Positions 3,093 through 9,189 of a stretch of 64,000 nt of DNA are shown here, piece after piece; position 1 is the first letter of the stretch; every line of letters begins with the position of its first letter. The notes beneath the pieces are model-generated. The model was not told the origin of the DNA. It saw nothing but the letters and a program-made list of their open reading frames with translations, and did no database searches. The translations under genes were made by a program, and so were the position numbers. Location: the NCBI GenBank assembly GCA_022560615.1, contig JADFSR010000004.1, positions 1-64,000 on the forward strand. The letters run 5' to 3'. Source of the stretch: Gemmatimonadota bacterium (GTDB lineage Bacteria; Gemmatimonadota; Gemmatimonadetes; Longimicrobiales; Gaopeijiaceae).

Positions 3093-4166
3093 ATGATGAG
3101 CAGTCCTATCAAAGCGATTCGCTGCCACCGGTTCGCGGGGCTCGACGAGGACGGGAAGCCGGTGCCGACCCCGGACCCACTCAGGGATGTGCTGTCGCTC
3201 GATGAAGTGCAAGCACCAGAGTGCGAAGCCGGGAGTGTTCTCGTCTCCTCACATTATGTCGGAGTCCAGTACCCTGATGCGCTTCAGGCTCAGGGCCTCT
3301 ACCAGGTAAGACCACCCCTCCCGTATGTGCCCGGCATGGACCTGACGGGAACGGTTCTCGAGGTCGGTGAAGGCGTCGAGGGCCTGCGGGTGGGTGACCG
3401 AGTGATCGCGCAAATGGGCATCGGCGCGATGGCCGAGGTCGTCAAGGCCGACGCGCGTGCCGTGTGGAAGGCACCCGACAACGTTCCGCTGTCGCAGTGC
3501 GCCAACGTCGGCCGCAACTTTTTTGCGGCGTATCACTCTCTGAAGGTCATCGGTGAAATCGCTCCCGGTGACCTGGTGCTCATCGATGGCGCGTCGGGTG
3601 GCGTGGGCATGGCCGGAATCCAACTCGCCAAGGCCATGGGCGCTCAGGTCATCGCGGGCGTCAGCGTACCTGAGAAGCGGGCGTACCCAACCGCTGCCGG
3701 CGCGGACAGGGTGCTCTGCTATGGTCGTGATCGTGAAAGCCACCGGGCCTTCAAGAATGAGGTCAAACAAGCGGCGCGTGAGCTAGGGCATCCGGACGGC
3801 GTGGATTTGGTGCTCGACATGGTGCAGGGAGATCTCTTCGAGGCGGCGCTGGTCTCCTCTGTGAGACCACTGGGCAAGATATGTCTAGTAGGATTCACGG
3901 CAGGTCAGAAACCGATTCGACCGGGTATGCTGCTCATCAAGCAGGCCGCTGCCATTGGTAGCCTGTGGGGTCCGTGGGCCACAGCCAATCCGGATCGGCA
4001 CCAGGAGCACGTTGCCGAGATCCTCAGCTACATGGCGACCGGTGCTGTGGCGCCGCGTGCCGATCGCGTATTCCCGCTGGAGCGCTTTATCGAAGCGTTC
4101 GAGCTCTTCGAGAACAACGAGGGACGCGGCAACACGGTGGTGTGTATGACCGGAGAGGAGGTCTAG
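3093..4166 (+). CDS. Zinc-independent NADPH:quinone oxidoreductase (MDR superfamily)
   Basis: A 357-residue medium-chain reductase. The N-terminal GroES-like fold contains PGMDLTGTVLEVGEGV, and the nucleotide-binding part contains the quinone-reductase motif GASGGVGMAGIQLAK. The cysteine/histidine ligands of zinc alcohol dehydrogenases are absent, which places it with NADPH:quinone oxidoreductases. Two consecutive Met codons (3093, 3096) make the start slightly ambiguous, and no clear ribosome site precedes them. It stands alone between the divergent VapBC module and the exported aminotransferase. Cytoplasmic; the physiological acceptor is unknown. Confidence 0.9.
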   Translation: MMSSPIKAIRCHRFAGLDEDGKPVPTPDPLRDVLSLDEVQAPECEAGSVLVSSHYVGVQYPDALQAQGLYQVRPPLPYVPGMDLTGTVLEVGEGVEGLRVGDRVIAQMGIGAMAEVVKADARAVWKAPDNVPLSQCANVGRNFFAAYHSLKVIGEIAPGDLVLIDGASGGVGMAGIQLAKAMGAQVIAGVSVPEKRAYPTAAGADRVLCYGRDRESHRAFKNEVKQAARELGHPDGVDLVLDMVQGDLFEAALVSSVRPLGKICLVGFTAGQKPIRPGMLLIKQAAAIGSLWGPWATANPDRHQEHVAEILSYMATGAVAPRADRVFPLERFIEAFELFENNEGRGNTVVCMTGEEV

Positions 4167-4279: not shown

Positions 4280-5428
4280 ATGTCACTGACGCGTCGCGGG
4301 TTCGCTCGCACGATCGGCCTGGGTACGGCCGGCTTGCTGTCCAGCTCGTTCATCATCGGCCGTGGCCGGGAGGCGGCAGCGTTCGAGCCCGAGTTGGCGG
4401 AAGAGCCATTCGATGATCCCATCATCCGGATCAGCTCCAATGAGAACGCCCGGGGCCCTGGTCCGAACGCGATGGCGGCGCTCCACCAGGCCATCACGAC
4501 GAGAACGGGGCGGGGATATCCACCAGACTACACAAACGAGCTGGTAACGACGATCGCCGAGATATACGGCGTAGGGGAGGACAACGTCGTCGTGGGTACG
4601 GGCTCGGGTGCCATCCTCGCTGGGTCGGTCCGAGCCTTCTGTTCCGCCACCAAGCCGCTGGTCACCGCGGCGCCGACCTACGGCACGCCCGACCGGATGG
4701 CGAGACGGATCGGCGCGCCCGTCAAGATGATTCCCGTCGACGGCTCGCTGGGTCTGGATATCTCTGCGATGGCGGAGGCCGCCCGCGGGGCGGGCATGGT
4801 GTTCTTCTGCAACCCGAACAATCCAACGGGCACGGCGCACTCGGCGAGCGCAGTGGAAGACTTTGTCCGACGAGTGATGCGTGCTTCACCCGCTACCAAG
4901 ATCCTGATCGACGAGGCCTACATCGACTACACGTTCGATTCGGCCGTCAAGACCGCGGCCCCGTTGACACAGGAGTTTCCGAGCGTGTTCATCACGCGCA
5001 CCTTCTCGAAGGCGCATGGCATGGCGGGTCTGCGCGTCGGCTATGCGATCGGGCAAGAAGAGACCCTCGATGCGATCAGCGATGCGTGGAATCTCGGCAG
5101 CATGAACACGCTGTCCGCCGCTGCCGCGATCGCGTCGATCGAGGATCCCGAGCATATCGCCGAGGAGCGGCGAGAGAACGCACGGATTCGCCGGTTCACG
5201 CTCTCCGCGTTCCGGGACCTGGGGTTCGAGGCTCCCGACTCCCACACCAACCACATCTTCGTCGACCTCAAGCGTCCGGCGAGTGAGTTTCGGGAGGCGT
5301 GTCTGGAACAGAGTGTGCGCGTGGGTCGGGACTTCCCGCCCATGGAGCATACCTACTCTCGGATTTCACTTGGGACGATGGAAGAGATGGAGACGGCGGT
5401 TGGCGTGTTTCGAAGCGTCTTGAGTTGA
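4280..5428 (+). CDS. Tat-exported HisC-like PLP aminotransferase
   Basis: A 382-residue fold-type I class I/II aminotransferase resembling histidinol-phosphate aminotransferases. K244 in FSKAHGMAGLRVG is the expected PLP Schiff-base lysine, and NPNNPTGTAHS is the family substrate/PLP motif. The first ~35 residues form a twin-arginine signal (TRRGFARTIGLGTAG, then a hydrophobic run), so the enzyme should be exported folded with its cofactor. That is unusual for a biosynthetic-type aminotransferase and argues against a role in histidine synthesis. A GGGGGATG stretch precedes the ATG. Its stop overlaps the following VOC gene, and a second exported PLP enzyme follows. Confidence 0.9.
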   Translation: MSLTRRGFARTIGLGTAGLLSSSFIIGRGREAAAFEPELAEEPFDDPIIRISSNENARGPGPNAMAALHQAITTRTGRGYPPDYTNELVTTIAEIYGVGEDNVVVGTGSGAILAGSVRAFCSATKPLVTAAPTYGTPDRMARRIGAPVKMIPVDGSLGLDISAMAEAARGAGMVFFCNPNNPTGTAHSASAVEDFVRRVMRASPATKILIDEAYIDYTFDSAVKTAAPLTQEFPSVFITRTFSKAHGMAGLRVGYAIGQEETLDAISDAWNLGSMNTLSAAAAIASIEDPEHIAEERRENARIRRFTLSAFRDLGFEAPDSHTNHIFVDLKRPASEFREACLEQSVRVGRDFPPMEHTYSRISLGTMEEMETAVGVFRSVLS

Positions 5429-5955
5429 GGAGCTCCTGTTCCCGGCGCGACTTCATCAAAAAGGCGATCATCGCGGGCCCGGTGGTCTCGGGGGCGAGCA
5501 CGTTCGCAAGCCCCTCCGATGGAGTCGCGCAGCCGGCCCATGCGGTCACGCAGCAGGCTGCGAGGATCGGCGCGCTCGACCACGTCGCGATACCGATCCA
5601 GAGGGTCGAACAGATGGTCGAGTTCTATCGGGCGTTGGGGTTCCGCGTGAGCGAGGTCGGCCAAGGGATCTCCGTCCACTTCGGCCACCAGAAGATCAAC
5701 TTCCACGTTCCGGCGCGGTGGCAGAACGAGAACTTCACGCTCCGGGCAGCCGAAGCGATCCCGCCGTGTGGTGACTTCTGCTGGGTGTGGGAAGGCACCT
5801 CGGAAGCGCTTCGCAGCGTCCTTCAAGCAGCCGAGGCCGAGATCGTAGCAGAGGGCGAGCGGCGGGGCGGCCGTGATGGTGGAAGCGCGATCGGTGAGAG
5901 CGTCTACGTCCGTGATCCTGACGGCAATCTGCTCGAATTCATCAGCTATGCCTAG
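5425..5955 (+). CDS. Tat-exported VOC-fold (glyoxalase-like) protein
   Basis: Starting at TTG 5425, which overlaps the aminotransferase stop as TTGA, the protein is 176 residues with a clean Tat signal (SRRDFIKKAIIAGP). The mature part begins with LDHVAIPIQRVEQMVEFYRA and ends with YVRDPDGNLLEFISY. These are the paired beta-alpha-beta-beta-beta signatures of a VOC metalloprotein, with candidate metal ligands H in LDHVA and E in LLEF. VOC proteins include glyoxalases, dioxygenases and resistance proteins; the reaction is not predictable. The TTG is chosen because it gives a complete Tat signal and stop/start coupling; longer versions would run into the aminotransferase. Confidence 0.82.
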   Translation: MRSSCSRRDFIKKAIIAGPVVSGASTFASPSDGVAQPAHAVTQQAARIGALDHVAIPIQRVEQMVEFYRALGFRVSEVGQGISVHFGHQKINFHVPARWQNENFTLRAAEAIPPCGDFCWVWEGTSEALRSVLQAAEAEIVAEGERRGGRDGGSAIGESVYVRDPDGNLLEFISYA

Positions 5956-6132
5956 AGAACCGCTGCGGGAAACGCGCGGTATGCTGACCCGGGTCTTCTC
6001 CGTTGCTTGCGCCGCCACACGCCATTTCGGATGTTGAGTGGATGTGACCCTCAGCAAGGACATTCGGATGTCCGACCCGAGCGACTGTCTGAGCGCCGCC
6101 TTGCGCGGCCGCACCCGCGTCGAGGCGAAGTG

Positions 6133-7485
6133 ATGCCAAAGAATCGCGGACTCGATCGTAGAGCGTTCCTGCGGAACGCAGGAGGAACCGCACTCCTGGG
6201 CGCTGTGGGCGTCAAGCCCGCCATGGCGGGTGACGTCACCGAGGCTCTGCCGACCCCCAGACGTCAGGTCTTCGACTTCGACGAGATCTACAGCCGAGTC
6301 GGGACGGACAGCACCAAGTGGGACGGCGCGATCGCGACGTACGGTCAGGGCATCGAGGTCGGCATGGGCGTTGCCGACATGGACTTTCGCACCGCGCCCT
6401 GCATCACGCGAGCTCTCGCCGAGCGCTGCGAGCACGAGAACTGGGGTTACCTGAGAAGGCCCACTAGGTATGTCGAGGCCGTGGTCGACTGGAACCGACA
6501 GCGCTACGGACTCGACATCGATCCCGAGACGGTCGTGTGGACGGCAGGCGTGCATCCCGCCCTCGTCGCGGGGTTGCACACGTTCTCGCCGCCGGGCACG
6601 AAGGTCCTCCTGACAACGCCGACGTACAACGGTTTCTACACCGACCTGCGCTTCACGCGGACCGTGGCCGAGGACTGTGAGATGAAGCTGGTCGACGGAC
6701 GGTATTCGATCGACTTCGAGGACTTCGAGCTGCGCGCAGCCCGCGCCAACGTCTTCATCCTCTGTAACCCTCAGAACCCTACGGGCAACTGCTGGTCGCC
6801 CGAGGAGCTGACGCGGATGGGTGAGATTTGTCTCCGGCACCGGGTCGTCGTCTTTGCCGACGAGATCCACTGTGACTTCGTCATGAGCGGGCAGACGTAC
6901 ACACCGTTCGCTAGCCTTCCGAACCTCGACATCGTCGACAACAGCGTCACGTTCAAGGCGGCGAGCAAGACGTTCAGCCTCGCAGGGATCAAGGTCGCCT
7001 GGTACTTCTCGACCAACCCGGACCTTCTGGAGCGAATGAAGGCCAACACCCGGGCGGACCTCACGACCCTGGGCTTGGTTGCCAACCACGCCGGCCTCAC
7101 GGAGGGCGAGCCATGGCTCGATCAGTTGCGCGTCTACATCGACGGCAATCATGACTTCGTGGAGTCCTATATCAGGGATCGCGTGCCGCTCTTGAAGTAC
7201 ACGAAGGCGCAGGGCACGTACCTCGCCTGGCTCGACGTAGCCGGAGTCGTCGACAGAATCGGGGCGAAGCAGATCGCGGCAAAGGAAAGCGAGACGTCCG
7301 TCAACCCGGTCACGCCGGAGAAGATCGTTCAGCGCTGGCTCGCCGAGAACGCGGGTGTCTACCTGAATCCCGGATCGGACTACGGTACGGGCGGGGCGGA
7401 CCACATGCGCATGAACGTCGGCACGTCCAGACGCCTCATCGAGCGCGCGCTCGACAATATGGCTGCTGCGTTGGCGCGCGTCTGA
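6133..7485 (+). CDS. Tat-exported MalY/PatB-like cystathionine beta-lyase (C-S lyase)
   Basis: A 450-residue PLP fold-type I enzyme of the MalY/PatB C-S lyase group. Seen are GVADMDFRTAP near the N-terminus (family signature), NPQNPTGN, the FADEIHCDF aspartate motif, and K279 in ASKTFSLAGIKVAW as PLP lysine. Residues 1-36 are a Tat signal (LDRRAFLRNAGGTALLGA). ATG 6133 follows a GAGGCGAAG ribosome site and gives the complete Tat signal; the open frame further upstream has no support. Family enzymes cleave C-S bonds of cysteine conjugates or cystathionine to thiol or sulfide, pyruvate and ammonia. Here the reaction would occur outside the cytoplasm. The convergent neighbour is a sulfite oxidase-like protein. 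Confidence 0.9.
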   Translation: MPKNRGLDRRAFLRNAGGTALLGAVGVKPAMAGDVTEALPTPRRQVFDFDEIYSRVGTDSTKWDGAIATYGQGIEVGMGVADMDFRTAPCITRALAERCEHENWGYLRRPTRYVEAVVDWNRQRYGLDIDPETVVWTAGVHPALVAGLHTFSPPGTKVLLTTPTYNGFYTDLRFTRTVAEDCEMKLVDGRYSIDFEDFELRAARANVFILCNPQNPTGNCWSPEELTRMGEICLRHRVVVFADEIHCDFVMSGQTYTPFASLPNLDIVDNSVTFKAASKTFSLAGIKVAWYFSTNPDLLERMKANTRADLTTLGLVANHAGLTEGEPWLDQLRVYIDGNHDFVESYIRDRVPLLKYTKAQGTYLAWLDVAGVVDRIGAKQIAAKESETSVNPVTPEKIVQRWLAENAGVYLNPGSDYGTGGADHMRMNVGTSRRLIERALDNMAAALARV

Positions 7486-7521
7486 CGGCTTTTTTTTGGG
7501 TGCGGAGGACTACGCGGCCCG

Positions 7522-8706
7522 TCAGGCTACCTCGATCGTCCGGTGGAAGAGCTCGTTGTTCTCCCAGCGAGTCCTCTTCATGTCGAGGTGCTCCGGCTGA
7601 GTGCGCCCCACGGTGTCCGTGGCCCGCGACACCAGCGTATGCTCTCCGGCCGGCAACTCCGGCATCTCGAGCGTGAAGAACGTCCAGCTGTGGGGATCGC
7701 TCGGGCGGTCTAGCTCGGCCGTGCTCCAGGCGCCGTCGTCTACGCGCACCTCGACCCGATCCAGCGGAGTGCCGTCGCTCCAGGCCACGCCGAAGATCGT
7801 GAATCGGCTGCCGCTCCGAGTTACGCGGGCGATCGCGGATTTGGGCCGCTGGCGTGTGACCGACGTCTCGATCCACTCCGTCCGACCGTCCACCTCGCGC
7901 CCCATGAGCGTGACGTAGTCCTTGGCCATGAAGCGGGTCATCAGGCGGTCTGCGCTCAATTCGATCTTGTTCAACCACTTGACCTGACTGATCCCGTACC
8001 AGCCGGGGACGATCAGCCGCACCGGGAAGCCATGAACCACCCGCAGAGGCTCCCCATTCATCTCATACGCGAGGATCGGATTCGTATCTCTGATCTGATC
8101 CATCGACATCGACCGAGCGAAATTCTGCTCGTATTCGTTTCCCCGGATTTCTTCCGTTCCCGAGTCCGCCGCCCAGAAATGGACCTCCTTCGCGTCGTCC
8201 GCCGGCCCCAATTCCTCGAGAAGCGGCAAGAGCTCGGTACCCGTCCATGTGGCGTTCCCCACCATGCCGTGGAACAGCCGGGCCGAGTTTCCGCTGCACT
8301 CGAAGACCGTCGTGCGTTCCACACGGGGTCGGGACTTGAGCTGGTCGAGCGTAAGCGTCAGCGGCCGCTGAACTAGCCCGGTCAATCCGAGCCGATACGT
8401 CGAGGCGTTCAATTCGGGGTAGCCGTAGTGCGCCACCGCGAAGAAGTCGTCGACCGGTGTCGTCCACGACGTCAGGTTGCGTAGATCCTGCGCGACGCGG
8501 AGTCCACTCCCGTCGGATCCGCGGTGGGTGGAGAAGGTCTCTGGAACGTCCGTGAACGGGACGATCGCTTCCTGAGCGAACCAGGACGCCGGCCAACCAC
8601 GTACCGGGGTTACCGCCAGGCCGACGGTGACGATGCCCAGCTGGCTCAGGAGGTCTCGGCGAGTCATGAAACCGTCGAGCGTGGTCGACGAGCTGCATTC
8701 TTTCAT
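7522..8706 (-). CDS. Sulfite oxidase-like molybdopterin oxidoreductase with Tat signal
   Basis: A 394-residue protein of the sulfite oxidase/SoxC/YedY superfamily. C137 in the FECSGNSAR motif is the expected molybdenum-coordinating cysteine. VHGFPVRLIVPGWYG is a conserved Moco-domain segment, and the C-terminal ~110 residues resemble the Mo-co dimerisation domain. The N-terminus carries a Tat-type signal (MTRRDLLSQLGIVTVG). Translation may begin at ATG 8706 or at the internal Met 8667 just before TRRD. Known relatives oxidise sulfite to sulfate in the periplasm, passing electrons to cytochrome c. It converges on the exported C-S lyase and diverges from the cysteine-rich microprotein. Confidence 0.9.
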   Translation of the reverse strand: MKECSSSTTLDGFMTRRDLLSQLGIVTVGLAVTPVRGWPASWFAQEAIVPFTDVPETFSTHRGSDGSGLRVAQDLRNLTSWTTPVDDFFAVAHYGYPELNASTYRLGLTGLVQRPLTLTLDQLKSRPRVERTTVFECSGNSARLFHGMVGNATWTGTELLPLLEELGPADDAKEVHFWAADSGTEEIRGNEYEQNFARSMSMDQIRDTNPILAYEMNGEPLRVVHGFPVRLIVPGWYGISQVKWLNKIELSADRLMTRFMAKDYVTLMGREVDGRTEWIETSVTRQRPKSAIARVTRSGSRFTIFGVAWSDGTPLDRVEVRVDDGAWSTAELDRPSDPHSWTFFTLEMPELPAGEHTLVSRATDTVGRTQPEHLDMKRTRWENNELFHRTIEVA

Positions 8707-8922: not shown

Positions 8923-9189
8923 ATGATCATCGAAGCACTGAGTTGGTACGTCGAAAGCCTCTCCGCTTTCTGGGTCAGCCTAGCCGGTGGCGGACTCGTC
9001 AAGCTGATCCTGATCTTGTGTTTCATCTACTGGATCTGCTGCCGCCGGGGGCGCTGCGGTCGCCATCGCTGTCATGGCGGGTGCTCGCACTGCGGGTGCT
9101 GGTGTGGTGGCTGCGCGTGCGGGGCGGGTGAAGACGGTGAAGACGGTGCGGAGGAGGAAGTGGACGGAGAGGCGGCAGCGGAGGTTTAG
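8923..9189 (+). CDS. Cysteine-rich single-pass membrane microprotein
   Basis: An 88-residue protein with three distinct parts: an N-terminal region with one hydrophobic helix (about residues 12-38); then a segment with eleven Cys between residues 33 and 66, spaced mostly two to five apart and mixed with Gly, Arg and three His (48, 51, 56); then a very acidic tail of Glu/Asp/Gly/Ala. A GGAG ribosome site precedes the ATG. No family recognised. The composition suggests metal binding (Zn, Cu, Fe-S) or disulfide cross-linking beside a membrane. Positive residues directly after the helix suggest the Cys-rich part faces the cytoplasm, but this is only an inference. Confidence 0.7.
   Translation: MIIEALSWYVESLSAFWVSLAGGGLVKLILILCFIYWICCRRGRCGRHRCHGGCSHCGCWCGGCACGAGEDGEDGAEEEVDGEAAAEV

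Follow-up and report, generated by a model that had tools for sequence, protein, structure and literature searches.

The window, by which we mean the whole 64,000-nucleotide stretch of DNA analysed (G000:C4:1-64000), comes from a 4.5 Mb source assembly, G000, that is 99% complete. It contains four genes, here termed A to D, each encoding a protein with an N-terminal twin-arginine motif followed by a hydrophobic stretch:

4280..5428, + strand: A, class I/II aminotransferase of the HisC superfamily with a Tat signal (PF00155; N-terminus MSLTRRGFARTIGLGTAGLL)
5425..5955, + strand: B, VOC-fold protein with a Tat signal (PF00903; N-terminus CSRRDFIKKAIIAG)
6133..7485, + strand: C, MalY/PatB-like pyridoxal phosphate (PLP) C-S lyase with a Tat signal (PF00155; N-terminus LDRRAFLRNAGGTALLGAVGVKPAMA)
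6154..6231, + strand: Tat signal of C (DRRAFLRNAGGTALLGAVGVKPAMA; the twin arginines are residues 9-10)
7522..8706, - strand: D, SUOX-fold molybdenum protein with a Tat signal (molybdopterin and dimerisation domains, PF00174 and PF03404; N-terminus TRRDLLSQLGIVTVGLA)

A, B, and C thus share one strand, and D converges on C tail to tail, as the initial annotation had described. The same four-gene layout is also found in the Gemmatimonadetes MAG SZUA-1190 (L059). For B, a TTG start at 5425 was judged most likely, the mechanical open reading frame beginning with GTG at 5299; the longest mechanical frame of C begins with TTG at 6007. The stop of A overlaps the start of B in the tetranucleotide TTGA in G000, CTGA in G001 of the same genus (where CTG is an uncertain start call), and GTGA in G032. 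An antisense reading frame at 5353-7404 was discarded, most simply as a high-GC shadow, because the plus-strand frames have protein homologs across phyla. Upstream of A lie genes for an FMO-like monooxygenase (991-2274, +) and a quinone-reductase-like dehydrogenase (3093-4166, +), both kept in G001, and between them a VapC-type PIN toxin (2288-2967, -; TIGR00028, over its cutoff), with a small upstream reading frame that may be its antitoxin. Divergent from D, positions 8923-9186 (+) encode a membrane-type protein of 88 amino acids whose tail is rich in Cys, His, and Gly (CCRRGRCGRHRCHGGCSHCGCWC) and which has no Pfam match.

The twin-arginine motifs are strongly conserved. In an alignment of 82 sequences that includes C of the window and was aligned with PatB, both arginines occur in every one of the 78 C homologs for which the alignment covers the N-terminus. 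A separate scan found the motif in 81 of 85 distinct C homologs; among the four exceptions, two are cut at contig ends, one has an apparent frameshift, and the last is L091. The arginine pair is likewise present in 21/21 of the A homologs listed, including those only 42-48% identical from other families of the class, in 10/10 homologs of B, and in 12/12 aligned proteins of D (R16 R17). Judged from these alignments, the motifs did not arise by chance and are real features of their respective families, and all four proteins are predicted to be exported by the Tat system.

The best NCBIfam match of C is the PatB C-S lyase model (TIGR04350), with 323.6 bits (322.7 in the genome-wide search) against a curated cutoff of 340, and it is the sole close PatB match in the source genome, the next scoring 135 bits. 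Since C falls below the cutoff, we describe it as working like a MalY/PatB lyase rather than file it as a member of that family. PatB-type C-S lyases convert cysteine conjugates into volatile thiols, beta-elimination in this family yielding a thiol, pyruvate, and ammonia. The catalytic residues of PatB are invariant or nearly so in C and its homologs: K279, which is the PLP lysine, D243, Y165, Y106, N212, and R426, the substrate arginine. An AlphaFold model of C (mean pLDDT 85.8) superimposes on Bacillus subtilis PatB with a target-normalised TM score of 0.94. PatB and its close solved relatives bear an NPHNPxGR motif, which is absent from the C clade; there, Q214 and N219 of NPQNP(T)GN each occur in 78/82 members. 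Given this motif and the sub-cutoff score, the substrate of C, and even its reaction, may differ from those of PatB. Homologs of C are spread over Gemmatimonadota, Acidobacteriota, Gammaproteobacteria (including Woeseiaceae), and Alphaproteobacteria, with taxa as named in the sequence records, and the Tat motif is conserved across these phyla. Two alphaproteobacterial MAGs (L120, L121) contain two tandem C-S lyase relatives with 36-41% identity to C of the window. A neighbour common to C across phyla was looked for, and none was found. In the characterised C-S lyase system of S. hominis, a transporter takes up the precursor first (PMC7385124). Nothing relevant on a family of C-S lyases exported by Tat turned up in the open-licence literature, and as far as this search reached, the C-type clade is undescribed.

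A is the probable partner of C. Across a class sample of 295 genomes, C (counted at E<=1e-120) is present in 66 and a close A (64-87% identity) in 7. All seven genomes with a close A also carry C, and in five of them the two genes are adjacent. The arrangement varies: G000 and G001 have A and C in tandem, with B in the middle; G294 has them tail to tail, their stops separated by about 10 bp; and G262 and G023 have them head to head, at distances of about 200 and 255 bp, respectively. In G032 and G290 they reside on separate contigs, and B lies away from A and C in G262, G290, and G294. The converse association does not hold. As 59 of the 66 C-bearing genomes have no close A, C evidently works without A; the nearest C outside the home genus, that of B74T1B5, has neither A, B, nor D beside it. 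The gene trees of the two enzymes disagree. In the A tree, G294 groups with the home genus (100/99), while in the C tree it groups with G284/G228 (100/99), and the home genus instead groups with B74T1B5 (98/89). The pair was therefore probably joined more than once, most simply through repeated relocation of A to a site next to C. Because G262 and G023 group as sisters whichever tree is used, they count as one event. Taken together, adjacency that recurs in other genera and in changed orientation constitutes good comparative evidence for an A-C partnership.

A itself matches its nearest NCBIfam models, PRK09105, PtaA, and hisC, below their cutoffs in every case. It scores 236.2 bits against PtaA (NF051461; cutoff 500) and 221.2 bits against the HisC histidinol-phosphate transaminase (TIGR01141; cutoff 276.55). 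Tat-motif HisC-like aminotransferases also occur in another family of the class (L174 8394-9527, L175 4856-5989, and L176 8325-9458), where they are convergent with DAHP synthase/prephenate dehydrogenase genes. B retains the His/His/Glu positions of a metal site, and its DHVA, KINxH, and LLEF motifs are invariant in 10 homologs.

These observations are best accommodated, with roughly even confidence, by a small extracytoplasmic enzyme set composed of a periplasmic beta-lyase (C), its transaminase partner (A), and an accessory (B), with D not a fixed component. C would acquire its PLP in the cytoplasm, where it is synthesised, and then be exported folded through the Tat system. Once outside, it would carry out beta-elimination on a cysteine S-conjugate or a similar beta-substituted amino acid, releasing thiol, pyruvate, and ammonia. 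A, as its Tat-exported transaminase partner, could plausibly regenerate its own PLP with the keto acid, pyruvate, made by C. Such use of pyruvate as an amino acceptor would explain why close A is found only in C-bearing genomes. Alternatively, A may act on the same amino-acid pool as C. B would be a metal-site accessory translated together with A. The exported lyase-transaminase pair is thus the likely part of the pathway that the initial annotation had proposed, resting as it does on conserved export motifs and recurrent adjacency; the sulfite-oxidase step that completed that proposal is weak.

That step belongs to a different explanation of the locus, in which periplasmic sulfur-amino-acid salvage would oxidise the sulfur released by C and leave D to finish the resulting sulfite. 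Several genomic observations are in its favour. G000 and G001 keep all four genes side by side, and within a 35-genome family sample D is present in 4/4 of the A-bearing genomes, more often than expected (p=0.0013, or 0.006 without G001, with ancestry ignored, so that shared ancestry confounds the association). Moreover, three Acidobacteria MAGs (L085, L101, L118) encode, at a distance of about 2-5 kb from C, a SUOX-fold protein 41-45% identical to D, although these MAGs form one related group. Against this, the link between C and D dissolves outside the home genus. D is found in 12 genomes of the class sample and adjoins C only in G000 and G001; it resides on other contigs in G011, G023, G032, G228, G284, and G290 and was not detected in G262 or G294. 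Co-occurrence of C and D in the family sample is not significant (p=0.07, or 0.13 without G001, again ignoring ancestry), the ten D loci compared had no neighbour in common, cytochrome or otherwise, and no gene of the cluster converts thiol or sulfide into sulfite. The four-gene neighbourhood is therefore conserved only within the home genus, D and in part B lying elsewhere in relatives, and the notion of a conserved four-gene operon was rejected. D is probably a neighbour by recent arrangement in that genus, not a fixed component of A-B-C.

The active site of D also speaks against this scheme. The protein has the SUOX fold (PF00174), with SorA and SoxC as the nearest solved folds; its own predicted model is only modest (pLDDT 68) and served for the fold alone. 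Its molybdenum-ligand Cys137 is invariant, and alignment with SorA and SoxC shows that the equivalents of SorA His57 and Tyr236 are kept. The position of SorA R55, an arginine in both SorA and SoxC, is Val in D and Val or Ile in all of its close orthologs. Titles of PDB entries single out a mutated arginine in SorA (R55M), SorT (R78Q/K), and the chicken enzyme (R138Q), which we take to be one structural position. D was consequently rejected as a canonical sulfite oxidase for want of the substrate arginine, and from its sequence, sulfite oxidation by D is doubtful. The suggestion that the lyase products feed D is correspondingly weak, and sulfur salvage that ends in sulfite oxidation appears unlikely.

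A second alternative casts A, and perhaps C, as enzymes exported to tailor a secreted metabolite or peptide, in the manner of PtaA and PvdN for pyoverdine. PtaA is among the best NCBIfam matches of A and is also present in species that produce no pyoverdine (PMC6206403). The match is nonetheless far under the PtaA cutoff, no biosynthetic neighbours are recognised at the locus, and the source genome has no NRPS condensation domain, an absence on which pyoverdine-like tailoring was rejected. Tailoring in general is, in our estimation, about as improbable as the salvage scheme.

Conceivably, C and A might instead deaminate free amino acids, whether in a general breakdown of amino acids by exported enzymes or in aromatic amino-acid metabolism, with no particular role in sulfur. 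The 42-48% identical, Tat-motif relatives of A in other families are tail to tail with genes for DAHP synthase/chorismate mutase/prephenate dehydrogenase, a context more suggestive of an aromatic transaminase than of a role in sulfur metabolism; an export signal on a transaminase of aromatic biosynthesis would itself be unusual. In L101 and L118, a chorismate mutase-prephenate dehydrogenase gene lies divergent to C on one side, and C is directly followed by a gene for a Tat-motif FAD amino-acid-oxidase-like protein (L101 7501-8838, L118 7490-8827). The contexts of C and of distant A relatives thus hint at amino-acid metabolism rather than sulfite. Such aromatic and oxidase contexts are confined to few lineages, and C is nearest to C-S lyases, not aromatic transaminases, in both sequence and fold, leaving this explanation with a similarly small share of our confidence. 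Finally, the four genes could be unrelated Tat proteins brought together by chance in a genome that encodes many exported enzymes, as the scattering of D, and partly of B, among relatives might suggest; the recurrence of A-C adjacency in three arrangements, on gene trees that disagree, already disfavours chance for that pair and makes it very improbable overall.

The exported beta-lyase and its transaminase partner therefore remain our preferred account. A broader form of it is put forward somewhat more tentatively: C-S beta-lyases of a widespread clade, exported by Tat, would constitute an extracytoplasmic thiol-releasing PLP pathway in company with an exported transaminase and a VOC protein. 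If true, cysteine conjugates would be cleaved to thiols outside the cytoplasm in MAGs of several phyla, and the few known PLP enzymes exported by Tat would gain a case unconnected with pyoverdine maturation. As a recurrent pair, A and C offer a testable two-enzyme module.

Comparison with known systems delineates what is shared and what is new. C resembles PatB (6QP3) and Escherichia coli MalY (1D2F) in fold, PLP lysine, pocket tyrosines, and the arginine that binds the substrate carboxylate. It differs from both in its Tat signal and an extra segment at about residues 372-395, and from PatB in having NPQNPTGN in place of NPHNPSGR and DEIHCD in place of DEIHSD. PvdN and PtaA are PLP enzymes that are exported folded by the Tat system and act in the periplasm (PMC6206403), so that the export of folded PLP enzymes, initially regarded as rare, is indeed uncommon but has precedents. 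Like PtaA, the Pseudomonas periplasmic transaminase A, A is a HisC-superfamily PLP transaminase with a Tat signal; it departs from PtaA in its sub-cutoff score and in a source genome devoid of NRPS condensation domains. PvdN, compared here by description, furnishes the precedent for Tat export of a folded, PLP-loaded enzyme, while its reaction and siderophore pathway differ. Lastly, D shares with SorA, SorT, and SoxC the SUOX fold, the molybdenum-ligand cysteine, and the His57 and Tyr236 equivalents, yet it has Val at the Arg55 position, scores under all three NCBIfam cutoffs, and has no cytochrome partner beside it.
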